From Streptomyces sp. SJL17-4 (GTDB lineage: Bacteria > Actinomycetota > Actinomycetes > Streptomycetales > Streptomycetaceae), in assembly GCF_036826855.1 (NCBI RefSeq), contig NZ_CP104578.1:2480001-2544000 (forward strand): DNA of 64,000 bases, in the 5' to 3' direction. Below the pieces are notes generated by a model. It ran no database searches. It was not told where the DNA came from and was given only the letters and a program-made list of their open reading frames with translations. Each line of letters starts with the position of its first letter. Position 1 is the first letter of the stretch. A program made the translations under genes and the position numbers. Below are positions 52,642 through 64,000 of this stretch, one piece after another.

Positions 52642-53748
52642 TCAGCGCTCGGCGGCGGCCAGCTGTCCACAGGCACCGTCGATCTCCTGGCCCCGGGTGT
52701 CCCGCACGGTCACCGGCACGCCGTGGCGGGCGATGGCCTCGACGAAGGCCTTCTCGTCCTCCGGACGCGACGCCGTCCACTTCGAACCCGGCGTCGGGTT
52801 CAGCGGGATCAGGTTGACGTGCACCCGACGCCCCTTCAGCAGCCGGCCCAGCAGGTCACCGCGCCACGCCTGGTCGTTGATGTCCCGGATGAGCGCGTAC
52901 TCGATGGAGATCCGGCGCCCGGACTTCTCCGCGTACTCCCAGGCCGCGTCGAGGACCTCACGCACCTTCCAGCGCGTGTTGACCGGCACCAGGGTGTCCC
53001 GGAGCTCGTCGTCGGGGGCGTGCAGCGAGACCGCGAGCCGGCACTTGAAGCCCTCGTCGGCGAAGCGCAGCATCGCGGGCACGAGCCCGACGGTGGAGAC
53101 GGTGATCCCGCGCTGCGAGAGCCCCAGACCGTCCGGCTCAGGGTCGGTGAGGCGCCGGATGGCACCGACGACCCGCTTGTAGTTCGCGAGCGGCTCACCC
53201 ATGCCCATGAACACGATGTTGGAGAGCCGCGCCGGTCCCCCGGGCACCTCCCCGTCCCGCAGCGACCGCATGCCGTCCACGATCTGGTGCACGATCTCGG
53301 CGGTCGACAGGTTCCGGTCGAGCCCGGCCTGCCCCGTCGCACAGAACGGGCAGTTCATCCCGCAGCCGGCCTGCGAGGAGATGCACATGGTCACCCGGTC
53401 CGGGTAGCGCATGAGCACCGACTCGACGAGCGTGCCGTCGTGCAGCCGCCACAGGGTCTTACGGGTGGTGTCGTCGTCGCACGAGATGTGCCGCACCACG
53501 GACATCAGATCGGGCAGCAGCTCCCCGGCCAGCTTCTCCCGCGAGGCGGCCGGAATGTCCGTCCACTCGGCGGGATCGTGCGCGTACCGCGCGAAGTAGT
53601 GGGTGGACAGCTGCTTGGCGCGGAACGGCTTCTCGCCGATCGCGGCGACGGCCTCCTTCCGCTCGGCGGGCGTGAGGTCGGCCAGGTGCCGCGGCGGCTT
53701 CTTGGCTCCGCGGGGGGCGACGAAAGTGAGTTCTCCGGGCTTGGGCAT
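52642..53748 (-). CDS. rlmN: 23S rRNA (adenine-2503-C2)/tRNA (adenine-37-C2) methyltransferase
   Basis: A 368-residue radical-SAM enzyme. The [4Fe-4S] cysteines are Cys129, Cys133 and Cys136 in [32 protein letters not shown] and [18 protein letters not shown] are RlmN signatures, and the C-terminal [17 protein letters not shown] holds the second catalytic cysteine. It methylates C2 of A2503 in 23S rRNA and A37 in some tRNAs. The start [14 protein letters not shown] is preceded by GGGGGA. A large hairpin lies in the leader. Confidence 0.95.
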
Positions 53749-54057
53749 GGTTCCCCCAGTGTCGCAGATCGATCCCGGTAACCAGGGGCTCCGCGTTCCG
53801 GTGGTGGTCGTCCCGGGCCGTCCGGGGCCGTCTCGGGCCGCCTTCAGACGGCCCAGAGACGGCCCCGGGCGGAGGCCGGCCAGCGGGAAATCCATGGTCA
53901 TGAACGTGGGCGACTACCTACTGCCAAGGTGCCCGATCGGGCCGCTCGCGCGCGAGCGGCCGCCCTCCTGATCATGCCGGGGACGCTCCCGACCTCCCCG
54001 TCCGCCAGCCGAGCGCGGTCTCAGTGCCCACGCCCGGCCCGGGGCATCCTGGAGGGT
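53749..54057. other. Intergenic region, rlmN leader and promoter of the following gene
   Basis: About 310 bases between divergent genes. It contains a large hairpin listed separately, a stretch with AT-richer bases around 53895-53930 that could hold the rlmN promoter, and the upstream region of the small plus-strand gene. No other gene is supported. Confidence 0.55.
53824..53866 (-). promoter_or_regulatory. Long hairpin in the rlmN leader
   Basis: Arms of 17-18 bases (GGGGCCGTCTCGGGCCG and CGGCCCAGAGACGGCCCC) pair with one bulged base around an 8-base loop, 75-120 bases upstream of the rlmN start. Since no gene ends here on either strand, it may be an attenuator or an mRNA stability element. 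Confidence 0.55.
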
Positions 54058-54270
54058 ATGGACAGTGCCCCGATAGTCGTCCATCAGCCCTCCCCCACCG
54101 GCGGGAGGCGCGTCACCGCACGCGGCAACATCCTCGGCCTCGCGCACAGCGACGAGGACGTGGTCGAGTTCCTCCGCCGCGCAGGCCTCCCGGACGCCGA
54201 GGACCTCCTCGACGACCCGGCTTGGGTGAAGTGGCGGGGCGGCCGAGCTCACGAGTATGAGGCGGCTTGA
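54058..54270 (+). CDS. Small conserved Streptomyces protein, function unknown
   Basis: A 70-residue acidic soluble protein, MDSAPIVVHQPSPTGGRRV with HSDEDVVEFLRRAGLPDAED and WVKWRGGRAHEYEAA. I recall close homologues as conserved hypothetical proteins across Streptomyces. GGAGGG stands very close to the ATG. It is the last gene of host-like composition before the element; the sequence changes character within about 30 bases of its stop codon. Confidence 0.72.
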   Translation: MDSAPIVVHQPSPTGGRRVTARGNILGLAHSDEDVVEFLRRAGLPDAEDLLDDPAWVKWRGGRAHEYEAA

Positions 54271-54302
54271 GACACGCCATCCACTCAGCTGCGCCACCCC
54301 AA

Positions 54303-55565
54303 CTAGGCGAGACCCAGAAACTTCTTGCTCGACGGGTCCCACCGCGATCCATAAATCTTGCAAAGCTTGCACAGATCAAGCCAAAACACCAGGAGGGCAA
54401 TCTGCTGGATCAGTGCCTCAACAAAAACATACTGAGGCACCTCTACCCCTTTGTACCTCACGATTCCATCATGCATCACGTAGTCAAACTCCGCATGTGC
54501 GATGCCATTTCTGACATCTCTAGTAAAAGCAGAATTCCAAAAGTACCGCAGTCGGGAGTTTCGATTTAGGTACGCCTCTTTGATCGACGCTCTCGCCTTC
54601 GTGTACTGATTCACGTTATTAACTAGCTCACGCGGGAGCAAGATCCGAGGCTCCCAACCACCAGGCAGGCCAGGGTCGCGGATCACGTCAAAATCGCGCC
54701 CCTCCACCATATTCTGCATGCGAACCACGAGTGGCAGCATTTGGCAACTCACTTCGAAGTTCTGCCTGTAGGCGTCGCGCAAGGTATCGATACGGACGAG
54801 CGGGACTCGCCAATCTTCCGGAATCGGCATCCGCCCGGCCCGGAGATGCACAATCGCCAGAGCCGGAATCCAATCGGCAGCATCCCGCAGAAGCCTCACG
54901 AGTTGATCCGAAAGGCGGCGATTGATTACTTTGAAGTTTGGATCCGAAGTGGCACGAAACGCCAGCTCGGAAAATTTCTCTTCCCTTCCGAAGGTTCGAG
55001 ACCACAACTCGCGCTTCGCTCTGGGGTAGGCACCATTGGGATCCAGCGCCGCCGCGAGCACCGAAAGGATTCGATGCAGATGGGTATGCCTATCAAGAAT
55101 TGACGGGGATTTCGGCCAGGCATCCTCGAAGCTGCGCCTCATTACCGAGTCGAGAAGATCCCATCTCTCCTGGAGATAGAAGCCGTAGGCGTGCTCAATA
55201 GCATCCACCCTCTCCTCGAATTCTCGAACAATTCCCACACATTGGAAATATTCCATAAATTGGTCACCGAAGACCTGCGTGGCGAAGATGAAAGAGGAGT
55301 GCTCCTCAGATGAAGTACTGGGAAGGTCGCCATAGGTGCTGACGACCCTCCAATCTGCTCCAGGGGTCCGATGATCAACCATCTTGACACCTGGAAGATT
55401 GAACCTAGGCAATTCACCATCGGAGGGCGGGGATGTTTCACCCCTAATCGCGGACTGACAATGCGGACACGCCACGGTTAGAGATTGGCTCTCCCGCACG
55501 ATTCCTACGCGCACAATGACTGGAGATTCACATGCCGGACATTCGATGTATGCGCGCAGAATCAT
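54303..55565 (-). CDS. Zinc-ribbon protein with HEPN-like C-terminal motif, cargo gene
   Basis: A 420-residue protein of no named family. A zinc ribbon is formed by Cys9, Cys12, Cys33 and Cys36 (CPAC and CPHC). The body is mostly helical. Near the C-terminus RNGIAH (352-357) gives the Rx4H motif of HEPN ribonuclease domains, followed by EFDYVMHDGIVRYKG, a pattern I associate with RNA-cutting or toxin-related helical domains. Codons such as AGA, AAT, ATT and CTA are frequent, unlike neighbouring genes, pointing to recent transfer. Its ATG abuts the stop codon of the HNH-like gene, so both are co-expressed. A defence or toxin role is inferred, not shown. Confidence 0.7.
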   Translation of the reverse strand: MILRAYIECPACESPVIVRVGIVRESQSLTVACPHCQSAIRGETSPPSDGELPRFNLPGVKMVDHRTPGADWRVVSTYGDLPSTSSEEHSSFIFATQVFGDQFMEYFQCVGIVREFEERVDAIEHAYGFYLQERWDLLDSVMRRSFEDAWPKSPSILDRHTHLHRILSVLAAALDPNGAYPRAKRELWSRTFGREEKFSELAFRATSDPNFKVINRRLSDQLVRLLRDAADWIPALAIVHLRAGRMPIPEDWRVPLVRIDTLRDAYRQNFEVSCQMLPLVVRMQNMVEGRDFDVIRDPGLPGGWEPRILLPRELVNNVNQYTKARASIKEAYLNRNSRLRYFWNSAFTRDVRNGIAHAEFDYVMHDGIVRYKGVEVPQYVFVEALIQQIALLVFWLDLCKLCKIYGSRWDPSSKKFLGLA

Positions 55566-56417
55566 TCACGCCTTCTTCTCGATCGAATTACAGTCCACAC
55601 AGACTCGTTCCACGTCACCTGCGGCCATGCCGCCGGGCCAGAACTGAGGAATTTCAACCTTATCCGAATGATAGAAATTACTTTGCCCGCGCCGCCACGT
55701 GAATGAGAACCCCCAGGACAGCGTGAACCAATCAAAACCGAAAAAACTCTGGGTTCCCCCAGGCGACCCATCCCGCCCCAGCAATAGCTCATGGTCGCCG
55801 AGCCAAAGACTCCCCTCGTTACTACCATGAACCCGACTCATGTGCCGACCCATCTCCAGCTTAGAAAGATTGGCGCTCATCTGCATATTGAGATGAGGCG
55901 CACGTCTCCCTTTTCCATTCATGAAGTCGATCAATGCATCCGGCACTGCGATACCAACCTCAGCGAGACGACAACCTACGTGCTTGACGAAGTACCTGAC
56001 CAGTTCCTCTCTGTGGATTCTCCAGTCGGATCCGTATACATCGGAGAACTTAAATCTGAACCCGTCGTCCACGACGCGGGCGTTCTCGCGCAAGTACTGA
56101 GAGAAGGCTTCATAGGCGAGATCGAAGGCCTGACTGCTCGAATTATTACAACTCGTGCAAAGAACCTTAGGGAATTTCAACTTGCCGGAGTTCGGCCCCT
56201 GGATGTAGTCAGGGCGGTTGCGTCCGCTGACTACGCGGACGACCCCGCCGTCAGTCCAGCGCCCTCCGCCGAACGTTCCGACAACATCGGACCTCTTATG
56301 GCGATGCTCCCGGGAGTCAGCAAACCCTCCGCACCACCAGCATCGGTCAGCACTTGCGCTTCGCATGCTGACAGGAATGAGTGATTGTGGATCTGAAGCA
56401 TCCTCGTCCGGGGCCAT
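55566..56417 (-). CDS. HNH-like zinc-binding endonuclease-type protein, cargo gene
   Basis: A 283-residue protein. Cys26 and Cys29 (CWWCGG), then SREHRHKRSD (35-44), then Cys87 and Cys90 in LCTSCNNSSSQAFD match the treble-clef layout of HNH-type nucleases with EH in place of the first catalytic His pair. A second pair CVDC is close to the C-terminus. The central 150 residues are an unassigned mixed domain. The base composition is much less GC-rich than the flanks. It is the first gene of a two-gene operon. The start MAPDEDASDP lacks a clear Shine-Dalgarno, and a later start is possible. Whether it cuts nucleic acid is unknown. Confidence 0.68.
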   Translation of the reverse strand: MAPDEDASDPQSLIPVSMRSASADRCWWCGGFADSREHRHKRSDVVGTFGGGRWTDGGVVRVVSGRNRPDYIQGPNSGKLKFPKVLCTSCNNSSSQAFDLAYEAFSQYLRENARVVDDGFRFKFSDVYGSDWRIHREELVRYFVKHVGCRLAEVGIAVPDALIDFMNGKGRRAPHLNMQMSANLSKLEMGRHMSRVHGSNEGSLWLGDHELLLGRDGSPGGTQSFFGFDWFTLSWGFSFTWRRGQSNFYHSDKVEIPQFWPGGMAAGDVERVCVDCNSIEKKA

Positions 56418-56449
56418 GTCTCATGTTCCCACTCCACCGGCGGACGTAC

Positions 56450-56465
56450 CCACCTTTCTAGGTGG
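56450..56465. promoter_or_regulatory. Inverted repeat in the divergent cargo/GntR spacer
   Basis: CCACC and GGTGG flank TTTCTA, forming a 16-base inverted repeat between the divergent HNH-like gene and the GntR-type gene. It may be an operator for the GntR protein, which would then control itself and the cargo operon. Confidence 0.4.
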
Positions 56466-56584
56466 CTGACCACGGCCCGTGGCCAGCTCGCACGGTTCGG
56501 CGAACCGGCTCCAACCCGCAGTGGTCTCCTCGCCGGTGGCACATGCGACCCTTGCAACAGTCGAAGCTGCCGGAAGGAGGTGCC

Positions 56585-57028
56585 GTGCCGGAGGCCAGCC
56601 CGCGCGGAACCTATCTGCTCATTGCTGACGCGCTGCGGAAGGACATCGAGAAAGGCTCTCCCGGGGACGCGCTGCCGTCCGAGGCCGATCTCATGCGGGA
56701 GCACGACGTCTCCCGCAACACGGTCCGGCGCGCGCTCAAGACGCTGCAGGCCGAGAACCTGATCAGTTCCGTGCCCGGTGCCGGGTGGCGACTGTCCGCC
56801 CAGCCTATCCGTCCCCTCGTCGACCGCATGATTGGCTTGATCAGGGAAGACGCATTGGCGGTGGGCGCCGCCTACCCGTCGGAGGCGAAGCTGTGCGCAC
56901 GGTTCGGAGTCTCCCGTACAGCGGTGCGCCGAGCCCTCGCGCAGATGGAGGGGACTGGGATGCTCTCCACCGTTCATGGCAAGGGCCGAACGGTTCAAGC
57001 CCTCCCGTCCAACCTGGAGGAGTCCTAG
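56585..57028 (+). CDS. GntR-family regulator made of two winged-helix domains
   Basis: A 147-residue protein that consists of two GntR-type winged helices in tandem: LPSEADLMREHDVSRNTVRR in the first and YPSEAKLCARFGVSRTAVRR in the second. No effector domain follows. The position at the control end of the transfer module corresponds to KorSA of pSAM2, the repressor of transfer and replication genes. GGAAGGAGG precedes a GTG start. Its end is within 6 bases of the HD-protein gene, so the two are coupled. Confidence 0.82.
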   Translation: MPEASPRGTYLLIADALRKDIEKGSPGDALPSEADLMREHDVSRNTVRRALKTLQAENLISSVPGAGWRLSAQPIRPLVDRMIGLIREDALAVGAAYPSEAKLCARFGVSRTAVRRALAQMEGTGMLSTVHGKGRTVQALPSNLEES

Positions 57029-57033
57029 CCTTG

Positions 57034-57609
57034 GTGCCCATGGACCTTACTGGGTGGGCGTACTCGCTCTCCGAATCGATGTTGTCCGAGCCGTTGCCCC
57101 GCCGCTGGTCGCACTCTCTCGGTGTCGCCAAGCGGGCCCGGTCCCTCGCCCCGATCCTCGGCGCGAACGCCGAGCTGCTGGAGGCTGCGGCCGTCCTGCA
57201 TGACATCGGCTACTCGCCCTCCATCGCCGCCACCGGCTTCCACCCGCTCGACGGAGCCCGGTTCCTCCGGGACCAGGAAGGCGCCGACGAACGGGTTGTC
57301 CGGCTCGTGGCCCACCACTCCTGCGCGCTTCTGGAGGCCGAGGAGCGTGGGCTCCGGCATGAGCTGGAGACAGAGTTCGAGCTGGAGCGGCCCGAGCTGG
57401 TCGACGCGCTCATCGTGTCCGACATGACGACGACGCCGACCGGCGAGCACACGACGCCGGCGGCTCGGCTGGACGAGATCGTTCAGCGGTACGGCCCGGA
57501 CACGATCGTCGGTCGGTTCATCCAGCGGGCGGCACCGGAGATCCATGCCGCCAACGAGCGGGTGGAAAGGCGGATGGCCGCAGCCGCGGCCGGCGCTCAG
57601 CCGATGTAG
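57034..57609 (+). CDS. HD-domain phosphohydrolase-like protein
   Basis: A 191-residue protein. His in RRWSHSLGVAKRA, the HD doublet in AAVLHDIGYSP and the later histidines in VAHHSCALLEAEERG fit the HD superfamily, whose members hydrolyse nucleotides or second messengers. The start is uncertain (GTG 57034 used; TTG 57031 and ATG 57040 possible) with GGAGGAG upstream. It follows the GntR gene and overlaps the convergent NUDIX gene by 13 bases. HD plus NUDIX in one element suggests nucleotide clean-up or signalling, by inference. Confidence 0.82.
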   Translation: MPMDLTGWAYSLSESMLSEPLPRRWSHSLGVAKRARSLAPILGANAELLEAAAVLHDIGYSPSIAATGFHPLDGARFLRDQEGADERVVRLVAHHSCALLEAEERGLRHELETEFELERPELVDALIVSDMTTTPTGEHTTPAARLDEIVQRYGPDTIVGRFIQRAAPEIHAANERVERRMAAAAAGAQPM

Positions 57610-62206: not shown

Positions 62207-62782
62207 ATGGCCCAGATTCCCAACAGTCGCCGCACCACCCGCCCCCGGCAGCCCCGGACCAGCACCAGCAACGCGGGTCCGAGTAACGGCAAGTCGGACA
62301 AGTTCGCCAGCGCCGGGGCAGCCGTCGGCGGTTTCGTCGGCGCGATGGGCGGCTCGTTCGCCCCGCCGATCAACGTCACCGTCAACCGCACCACCAACCG
62401 AGGTGGTGGCGGGCGTCGGCCGCACGCCGAAGCGCTGCTGCCCGCGCCGGACTTCAGCTCGCCGGCGCAGGTGCGGAACTACTGCAACAGCCTGCGGGCC
62501 GCCGCCGTCGCCCTCTCGATCGAGGTGGCGATGGGGACGGAGATCCTCAAGAGCGTCCTGGCGGCGGTCCCGGACCCGGAGGGCCGGATCGGCGGCTCCC
62601 GCATCCGCGCGGCGAAGGTGTCCCGCAAGCTCCGCAAGGCCGCCGACGACCTGCGGGACGCGGCGAAGAACGCCGCCGCCGCGTACGCGACGTTCCAGCA
62701 GGAGTACCAGGAGGAGATCAACCGAGTCCGCCACCGTGCCCGTCCCCGCGCGACGCCGCGCATGGACTGGGCCCAGCAGTAG
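62207..62782 (+). CDS. TraA/SpdD-like transfer-associated protein
   Basis: A 191-residue protein with a basic, Pro/Ser/Thr-rich N-terminus, a short glycine-rich hydrophobic stretch (SAGAAVGGFVGAMGGSFAPP) and a helical basic C-terminal half. It lies immediately upstream of traB, where plasmid transfer proteins called TraA are found in Streptomyces elements. The function is not established from the sequence. Confidence 0.65.
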   Translation: MAQIPNSRRTTRPRQPRTSTSNAGPSNGKSDKFASAGAAVGGFVGAMGGSFAPPINVTVNRTTNRGGGGRRPHAEALLPAPDFSSPAQVRNYCNSLRAAAVALSIEVAMGTEILKSVLAAVPDPEGRIGGSRIRAAKVSRKLRKAADDLRDAAKNAAAAYATFQQEYQEEINRVRHRARPRATPRMDWAQQ

Positions 62783-62796
62783 AAGGGAGAGGGGCC

Positions 62797-64000
62797 ATGG
62801 CACGCAAGAACACGGAATACGTCCTCGACGACCACCCGCGGGGCGGTTCGGAGAGCGGGAGCATCGGCGGCTACCTGCTGCACCGCGCGAAGCCGCACCT
62901 GCCGCCGTGGCTCGGCGTCGCGGGCACCGGCCTCGGCGGGGTGCTGGGCCACATGCGGTGGGCCGACAGCGCCGCCGCCGGCGTCGGCCTCACCGTCGCC
63001 TCGGTGGCCCTGACGAGCGCCACGTGGTGGATCGGCCGGAACACCAGCCAGCAGCGGCGCCTGCACTCCGCGATCACAGTCGCGGCGGGGTCGGCGTGGC
63101 TGACCGGCGCGTGCCTGGCCGGACCGGCCGCCGGACCGCTCGGGGACCTGTTCCTGATGGGCGGCCCGGTGATCGCCCTGTCGTGGAACGTGCGCATGGT
63201 CATGCGCCGCACCGACGCCGACGCCGCGGCCTCCAGTTCCGACAAGGGGCTGCTGGAGAAGGTCGGCCTGGCCCGCGCGGCGATCGGTGCGGCGAAGGTC
63301 GAGCCGAACCGGGTCACCGCCCCTATCGCGCTGGAGCCGGGCGAGCAGACCAACGACGACGTCACCAAAGTCCTCCCGCGGCTCGCCTCAGCCCTGGACC
63401 TGCCGACCACCGCCCTGCGCTACATGCCGAACGCCGACTCCGCCCGGCGCGGTGAGCTGGTCATCGTCCCCGAAGACATGCTCGCCGAGGTCGTCGAGTA
63501 CGACGGACCGTCCCAGCTGGGCGGCTCGATCGCCGACCCGCTGATCATCGGCCGGTACGACGACGGGTCGCCGCTCATGCTGTGGCTGCCGGGTGACCCG
63601 GAGGCGGGCCGCAACGCTACCCACGTACTGATCGCGGGCGGCACCGGCTCCGGCAAGGGCGACGGCGCCCTCAACGTCCTCACGGAGATTCTCTCCCGCC
63701 GGGACGTCAACGTCTGGCTGTCCGACCCCAAGTCCTTCCAGGACTTCCGCCCCCTCCTGCCCGCGTTCGACTGGGCCGAAGAGGGCGGAGCGGGTACGGA
63801 GGCGATGGTCGAAGCACTCCAGGCCGTCATCCCCGCCCGGACCCGTTGGCTCGGCGCCCACCGCTACCGGCAGTGGCTCCCCGAAGCCGCCGAGCGGCAG
63901 ACCGATCCGGCGCACTCCTGCCGGAGTGACGGCACCGCGTGCGGCTGCCCCGGCATGGCCTACCTGGTCGGCTGGTTCGAGGAGGCCGCCAACACCCTGA
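62797..64000 (+). CDS. traB: TraB/FtsK-SpoIIIE-type DNA translocase (C-terminus outside window)
   Basis: The visible 401 residues have three to four membrane helices in the N-terminal third (LGVAGTGLGGVLGHM, AAAGVGLTVASVALTSATWW) and the P-loop GGTGSGKG (281-288), with Gly after Lys as in other Streptomyces TraB proteins. DVNVWLSDPKSFQDFRPLLP follows. TraB moves double-stranded plasmid DNA between hyphae during conjugation, unlike relaxase-based systems. GGGAGAGG precedes the ATG. The Walker B, the wHTH DNA-binding tail and the rest are beyond the end. Confidence 0.9.
   Translation, partial: MARKNTEYVLDDHPRGGSESGSIGGYLLHRAKPHLPPWLGVAGTGLGGVLGHMRWADSAAAGVGLTVASVALTSATWWIGRNTSQQRRLHSAITVAAGSAWLTGACLAGPAAGPLGDLFLMGGPVIALSWNVRMVMRRTDADAAASSSDKGLLEKVGLARAAIGAAKVEPNRVTAPIALEPGEQTNDDVTKVLPRLASALDLPTTALRYMPNADSARRGELVIVPEDMLAEVVEYDGPSQLGGSIADPLIIGRYDDGSPLMLWLPGDPEAGRNATHVLIAGGTGSGKGDGALNVLTEILSRRDVNVWLSDPKSFQDFRPLLPAFDWAEEGGAGTEAMVEALQAVIPARTRWLGAHRYRQWLPEAAERQTDPAHSCRSDGTACGCPGMAYLVGWFEEAANTL

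Follow-up and report, generated by a model that had tools for sequence, protein, structure and literature searches.

A low-GC gene pair carried by an rlmN-integrated AICE in Streptomyces: a probable zinc-ribbon HEPN-like protein and an HNH_5-like zinc protein

The gene pair and its junction

The window, the whole 64-kb stretch of Streptomyces sp. SJL17-4 DNA that was analysed, contains two adjoining genes on the minus strand, here called A and B.

55566..56417, minus strand: gene A, 283 aa, an HNH_5-like zinc protein; first of the pair
54303..55565, minus strand: gene B, 420 aa, with an N-terminal zinc ribbon, a helical middle and a C-terminal HEPN-like domain; second of the pair
55563..55568, minus strand: TGAATG junction, where the TGA of A abuts the ATG of B with zero gap

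The coordinates and frames that a first-pass annotation of this DNA gave for the two genes are correct, and the first stop codon abutting the second ATG, which it also described, is seen in the TGAATG junction, with a GAAGG stretch just upstream. Its remarks on composition are confirmed as well. The GC content is 0.556 for A and 0.539 for B against 0.710 for the 64-kb window, and the pair forms the lowest-GC part of that window, the next-lowest 1-kb segment (start outside 53.0-56.5 kb) standing at 0.627. GC3 is 0.63 in A and 0.60 in B, compared with 0.72-0.96 in eight comparison frames, and the codons AGA, AAT and CTA together occur 12 times in A and 17 times in B as opposed to 0-4 times per comparison frame. 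A scan of 53700-57100 found no promoter. A and B are foreign genes that are probably co-translated.

Setting at the rlmN end of an AICE

The pair lies beside the gene rlmN, within a mobile element whose parts in and around the window are as follows.

53726..53751, no strand: 26-bp direct repeat marking an end of the AICE, at the 5′ end of rlmN
52642..53748, minus strand: rlmN, target of the integration and with its coding part whole (TIGR00048, 317.8 bits, cut-off 290)
54058-54270, plus strand: 70-aa frame inside the AICE, between B and rlmN, with no NCBIfam match
56462..57028, plus strand: GntR-family regulator of the AICE (Pfam PF00392, 101.5 bits)
62207..62782, plus strand: traA of the AICE (NF041213, 247.6 bits, cut-off 80)
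62797..64000, on to 64848 past the window, plus strand: traB of the AICE (NF041214, 978.4 bits, cut-off 800)

A second copy of the 26-bp repeat is found at genome positions 2550695-2550720, 6.7 kb past the window end. The genes between the repeats are A, B, the GntR regulator, an HD protein, a NUDIX-like frame (NCBIfam matches under cut-off), TraA, TraB, a prim-pol, DUF3631, an excisionase-like HTH protein (assigned by HTH_17; under the TIGR01764 cut-off) and a tyrosine integrase, most of the replication and integration genes lying past the window end. With a tyrosine integrase, an excisionase-like gene, a prim-pol, TraB and a flanking direct repeat, the element is an rlmN-integrated AICE, about 17.0 kb long, that carries A and B as cargo at its rlmN end; both its flanking repeat and its genes thus bear out the proposal that the pair is cargo at the end of a conjugative element. 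Passages of PMC9513070 describe AICE insertion in rlmN and report phage-resistance genes among AICE cargo. AICE03 of Streptomyces strain RLB3-6, covered in the same passages, shares the rlmN integration and has repeats of 11 nt, whereas those of the present element measure 26 bp.

As the repeat covers the rlmN start codon, integration replaces the upstream region of rlmN. The A and B genes point towards rlmN, a scan of the A/B strand between B and rlmN found no terminator-like site, and transcription running on from the cargo might drive rlmN. Among the genes past the window, the excisionase-like HTH gene (69063-69287; L071:13063-13287) has its top score, under the cut-off, with MAD1, a model for the MADS defence system, and ARAGORN places a tRNA-Arg at 67276-67363 in window numbering (complement), overlapping the prim-pol frame, a call that is probably spurious.

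Gene B: a zinc ribbon and a HEPN-like domain

Three features of B were located.

55458..55541, minus strand: B residues 9-36, four-cysteine zinc ribbon (C9xxC12...C33xxC36), from the alignment and subthreshold Pfam zinc-ribbon matches
54303..54803, minus strand: B residues 255-420, HEPN-like domain, from the predicted model and profile comparison
54495..54512, minus strand: B residues 352-357, RNGIAH (Rx4H motif), with R, N, I and H invariant in 18/18 rows

With a threshold of E <= 1e-3 and the 7992 best-sharing candidates scored, relatives of B comprise 20 protein clusters, of which the 12 with an organism name are all Streptomyces, and a search widened with an 18-row alignment returned 21 proteins, one of them new. 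Distant relatives are found at loci L003, L006, L026, L027 and L028, and there are distant kin in other Actinomycetota. In the alignment, in which identity falls to 19%, R352, N353, I355 and H357 are invariant in all 18 rows, and wherever a row extends over the zinc-ribbon cysteines (14 or 15 of 18 rows) they are kept. The invariant columns number nine (F270, E271, L277, N285, R352, N353, I355, H357 and F381), and the location of four of these in RNxIxH has a p of about 9e-6 under random placement over the 264 fully filled columns, a value that ignores the relatedness of the rows. As R[NDH]xxxH alone arises in 11% of shuffled B sequences, it is the conservation of the motif that counts. The motifs named in the first pass, an HNH-type cysteine/EH layout in A and four cysteines with RNGIAH in B, are present and conserved among the relatives.

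According to sections of the HEPN survey PMC3710099, the Rx4-6H of HEPN domains, in which R is followed by N, D or H, closes helix 3, and many families, though not all, conserve an acidic residue as Ex3[KR]; in Csx1 a hairpin follows the motif and a loose insert lies between helices 2 and 3. B has a conserved Rx4-6H (18/18), which the predicted structure places at a helix end before the last long helix. In the AlphaFold2 model (mean pLDDT 82.9; below 50 at 297-311 and 313-324), the motif ends helix 349-357 and is followed by a hairpin at 368-377 and the last helix at 378-407. E271 is invariant in 18/18 rows; four positions further along, 15/18 rows have Q and 3/18 have K or R.

Profile comparison points to the same family. 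An hhalign comparison of the B 255-420 profile with five RiboL-PSP HEPN proteins scores 30.4, with an E of 0.0006 and a probability of only 29%; none of 60 column shuffles exceeds 21.1, and the alignment places the RNxIAH of B on RNKIAH. Other scores are 21.6 for the RNxxxH protein of locus L022 (over 13 columns; also above shuffles), 15.7 for Apea, 12.7 for YaaC and 12.1 for the middle part of B. The assignment of B to HEPN in the first-pass annotation stands as far as the invariant motif, the helix order in the model and the profile comparison go, but no curated Pfam or NCBIfam HEPN profile passes its cut-off with B (PF18735 gives E 0.046, in 2 of the 21 family members) and no solved structure comes above threshold: Foldseek returns no match to the B model at E <= 0.001, and PDB sequence searches with A and B give no meaningful match. 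B is described as a zinc ribbon joined to a divergent HEPN-like domain, with HEPN membership probable. Receptor-like rows in the fold search were read as helical-bundle noise, and an Apea-type HEPN was set aside for lack of signal (one Apea sequence used; RiboL-PSP against Apea likewise gives none). A weak PHROG match (phrog_13366, E 3.6e-6) has its best stretch on the zinc ribbon.

Gene A: an HNH_5-like layout

The HNH-like layout of A falls in two halves.

56304..56342, minus strand: A residues 26-38, the CWWC...EH half, invariant in 28/28 rows
56145..56159, minus strand: A residues 87-91, the CxxCN half, with C87, C90 and N91 in 30/30 rows

Relatives of A include 29 protein clusters together with plasmid loci of Rhizobium, Bradyrhizobium, Photobacterium and Flammeovirga. 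Across them, every one of the 28 rows that reach the first half keeps C26, W27, W28, C29, E37, H38 and K41, and all 30 rows keep C87, C90, N91, S95, D99, K145 and C149, giving A the zinc CxxC...CxxC and the catalytic-type H and N expected of an HNH protein. The closest comparison is with HNH_5 (PF14279), which has in common with A the CxxC-x7-EH start and CxxCN and is alignable over 21 columns, over which the start of A scores 26.7 against 29 HNH_5 proteins of the genus, a narrow margin above the best of 60 shuffles (23.6). A differs from HNH_5 in having 48 residues from EH to the second CxxC and, with K145 and C149, its own conserved C-terminal part. The earlier description of A as HNH-like thus keeps its residue layout and this narrow profile margin and falls short at the Pfam cut-off: HNH_5 gives 15.5 bits on A, under the cut-off of 27.5, and matches 3 of the 30 family members (best E 0.012), no curated Pfam or NCBIfam profile passes, and, although HNH nucleases have a beta-beta-alpha metal fold, a Foldseek search with the A model (pLDDT 87) finds no match at E <= 0.001. 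A probably binds or cuts DNA.

The classical HNH pattern includes a last histidine. This residue is absent from the sequence of A, which, together with the lack of a significant profile or fold match for either protein, would suit a reading in which neither is an active nuclease and the two zinc-binding proteins serve structure, regulation or the housekeeping of the AICE. The invariance nevertheless falls on catalytic-type residues, and the relatives occur also on plasmids and in other phyla, and this reading is considered unlikely.

Co-occurrence of A and B

Frames at the loci of relatives were read directly, as gene callers missed some low-GC genes. Of 392 Streptomyces genomes, 3 contain B and 7 contain A (one A copy truncated), and the two occur together only in their own genome. 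The same holds for 396 genomes of the phylum, where 3 have B and a single one has A, and among the nearest 140 genomes B is found only in its own. Six other B loci are without A in the DNA examined (L002/L025, which are one locus, L003, L006, L026, L027 and L028), and eleven other A loci are without B (L007-L009, L020-L024, L029, L068 and L069). The exception comes from S. venezuelae, where the longest contig measures 586122 bases both for P0003, 1 of the 20 B clusters (92% identical), and for P0023, 1 of the 29 A clusters (89% identical); judging from these equal longest contigs, one S. venezuelae contig seems to carry both genes. Beyond that contig, a conserved two-gene system is not supported, and lack of conserved pairing is a result that the first-pass annotation itself had listed as refuting. 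Conserved pairing was accordingly rejected as proof of a system, and because relatives are usually apart, a true two-part system is unproven.

The genes adjoining A relatives vary, with a divergent protein in genomes G378 and G115, a probable membrane protein in Photobacterium and no obvious partner in others. In genome G031, a different, 255-aa RNxxxH protein lies 81 bp upstream of the A relative on the same strand, and this occurrence, in 1 of the eleven loci, is suggestive and no more. The protein bears RNAVEH (L022:8465-9232, minus strand, followed by the A relative) and has distant kin on Vibrio campbellii plasmids with no A homolog nearby. A similar, divergently oriented protein of 240-280 aa adjoins two close A relatives at L020:6247-6969 (minus strand) and L021:8483-9334 (plus strand). 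In Rhizobium (L009), the gene that follows A was tried as a HEPN candidate and dropped, as it gives no profile signal. In viral contigs and phage records, no relatives of A or B were confirmed.

These distributions bear on two readings that make the genes interdependent. As an obligate two-component immune module, A would sense or cut foreign DNA and unleash the RNase-type B; in its fuller form, a signal from A or the failure of A would release B, RNA would be destroyed and the cell would stop, a response that the AICE would use against phages and rival elements. The zero-gap junction, the shared S. venezuelae contig, the RNxxxH protein beside A in G031 and the HEPN proteins with HNH partners that portions of PMC3710099 record in other settings are consistent with such a module, but the scarcity of genus genomes with both genes and the six B and eleven A loci that lack the other argue against it, and both the module and its fuller form appear improbable. 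Less probable again, and considered quite unlikely, is an addiction module of the AICE with B as toxin and A as antitoxin or regulator. A two-gene operon on a mobile element would fit, as would the use of HEPN domains as toxins of the HEPN-MNT type (sections of PMC3710099), yet the six B loci without A indicate that B is kept without A, and where HEPN-MNT toxin-antitoxin pairs require an adjacent MNT nucleotidyltransferase, A shows no such match in Pfam or NCBIfam.

Defence-like neighbours of the relatives

Several relatives of B lie near genes of defence type. These include an N6-methylase about 0.6 kb away at L003, a protein with trypsin and STAND matches just under the Pfam cut-offs at 0.3 kb (L026), a QatC-like protein at 2.2 kb (L027, E 9.5e-60), a DUF5131 gene at 27 bp (L028), where the PADLOC candidates PDC-M41B and PDC-M30B reach E values down to 1.8e-107, and a trypco2-annotated gene 2.3 kb away at L006. 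The S. zinciresistens copy of B has a YaaC protein at 0.8 kb and an FtsK/SpoIIIE gene at about 6 kb. Neighbours of A relatives include an Mrr-type endonuclease (L021), Shedu (L007) and, at L009, an abortive-infection protein and a RelE/ParE toxin. Of ten neighbours picked by eye, five have a PADLOC match (5/8 for B relatives, 0/2 for A relatives). As a control, 33 chromosomal proteins of the window touch 16 PADLOC families (at most 18 member hits), so that raw counts do not separate the sets and only strong, specific matches carry weight. This control weakens PADLOC matches as proof of a defence island, and the defence setting that had been proposed holds in part: some neighbours of the relatives are restriction or candidate defence genes, but the chromosomal control proteins touch PADLOC families as well. 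A and B themselves match 0 families of PADLOC-DB 2.0 at E <= 1. Chromosomal frames before 52.5 kb touch the PADLOC models mad3, mad8, CARF5-ADA and REase_II.

Proposed function and relation to described systems

The preferred reading, to which about even odds are given, is that the AICE carries A and B as two cargo genes of defence type, co-made by coupled translation and each probably able to work alone, B being HEPN-like and A HNH_5-like. The two proteins would be made together through coupled translation at TGAATG. The ribbon and helical middle of B may respond to a sign of an invading phage or plasmid, upon which its HEPN-like part would cut RNA and stop growth, and A, as an HNH_5-like zinc protein, may bind or cut DNA. 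B is most likely an RNase-type defence effector and probably belongs to a family without a name of zinc-ribbon HEPN-like effectors, acting against phages or plasmids. A is best read as an HNH gene that is coupled to B here and occurs elsewhere without it.

The combination of A and B was not found among the systems described in PADLOC-DB 2.0 and the open literature, including portions of PMC3710099, PMC13092281 and PMC12839542. Zinc ribbon-HEPN fusions, which are listed in PMC3710099, and HEPN proteins beside HNH nucleases are already known in general, and HEPN and HNH accessory effectors of BREX appear in PMC12839542 (excerpts of both papers); there is a modest chance that A and B form a new two-gene module. 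The RiboL-PSP-type HEPN (PF18735) is nearest to B, with a common RNxIAH and the motif before the last helix; B differs in lying under every curated HEPN cut-off, in having E-x3-Q in 15/18 rows rather than E-x3-K/R and in its long helical middle. A further comparison is with single-gene HEPN defence proteins such as DS-11, a CBS-HEPN protein described in parts of PMC13092281: its HEPN domain stands alone behind a non-catalytic front part, as it would in B, but this front is CBS in DS-11 and a zinc ribbon in B. Should B prove to be an active HEPN RNase, it would add a family without a name (21 protein clusters found) to the effectors of bacterial immunity, and the AICEs of antibiotic producers would carry RNase-type effectors. 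A clear RiboL-PSP-type HEPN gene (100.2 bits) also lies elsewhere in the same genome, at 4976122-4976682.
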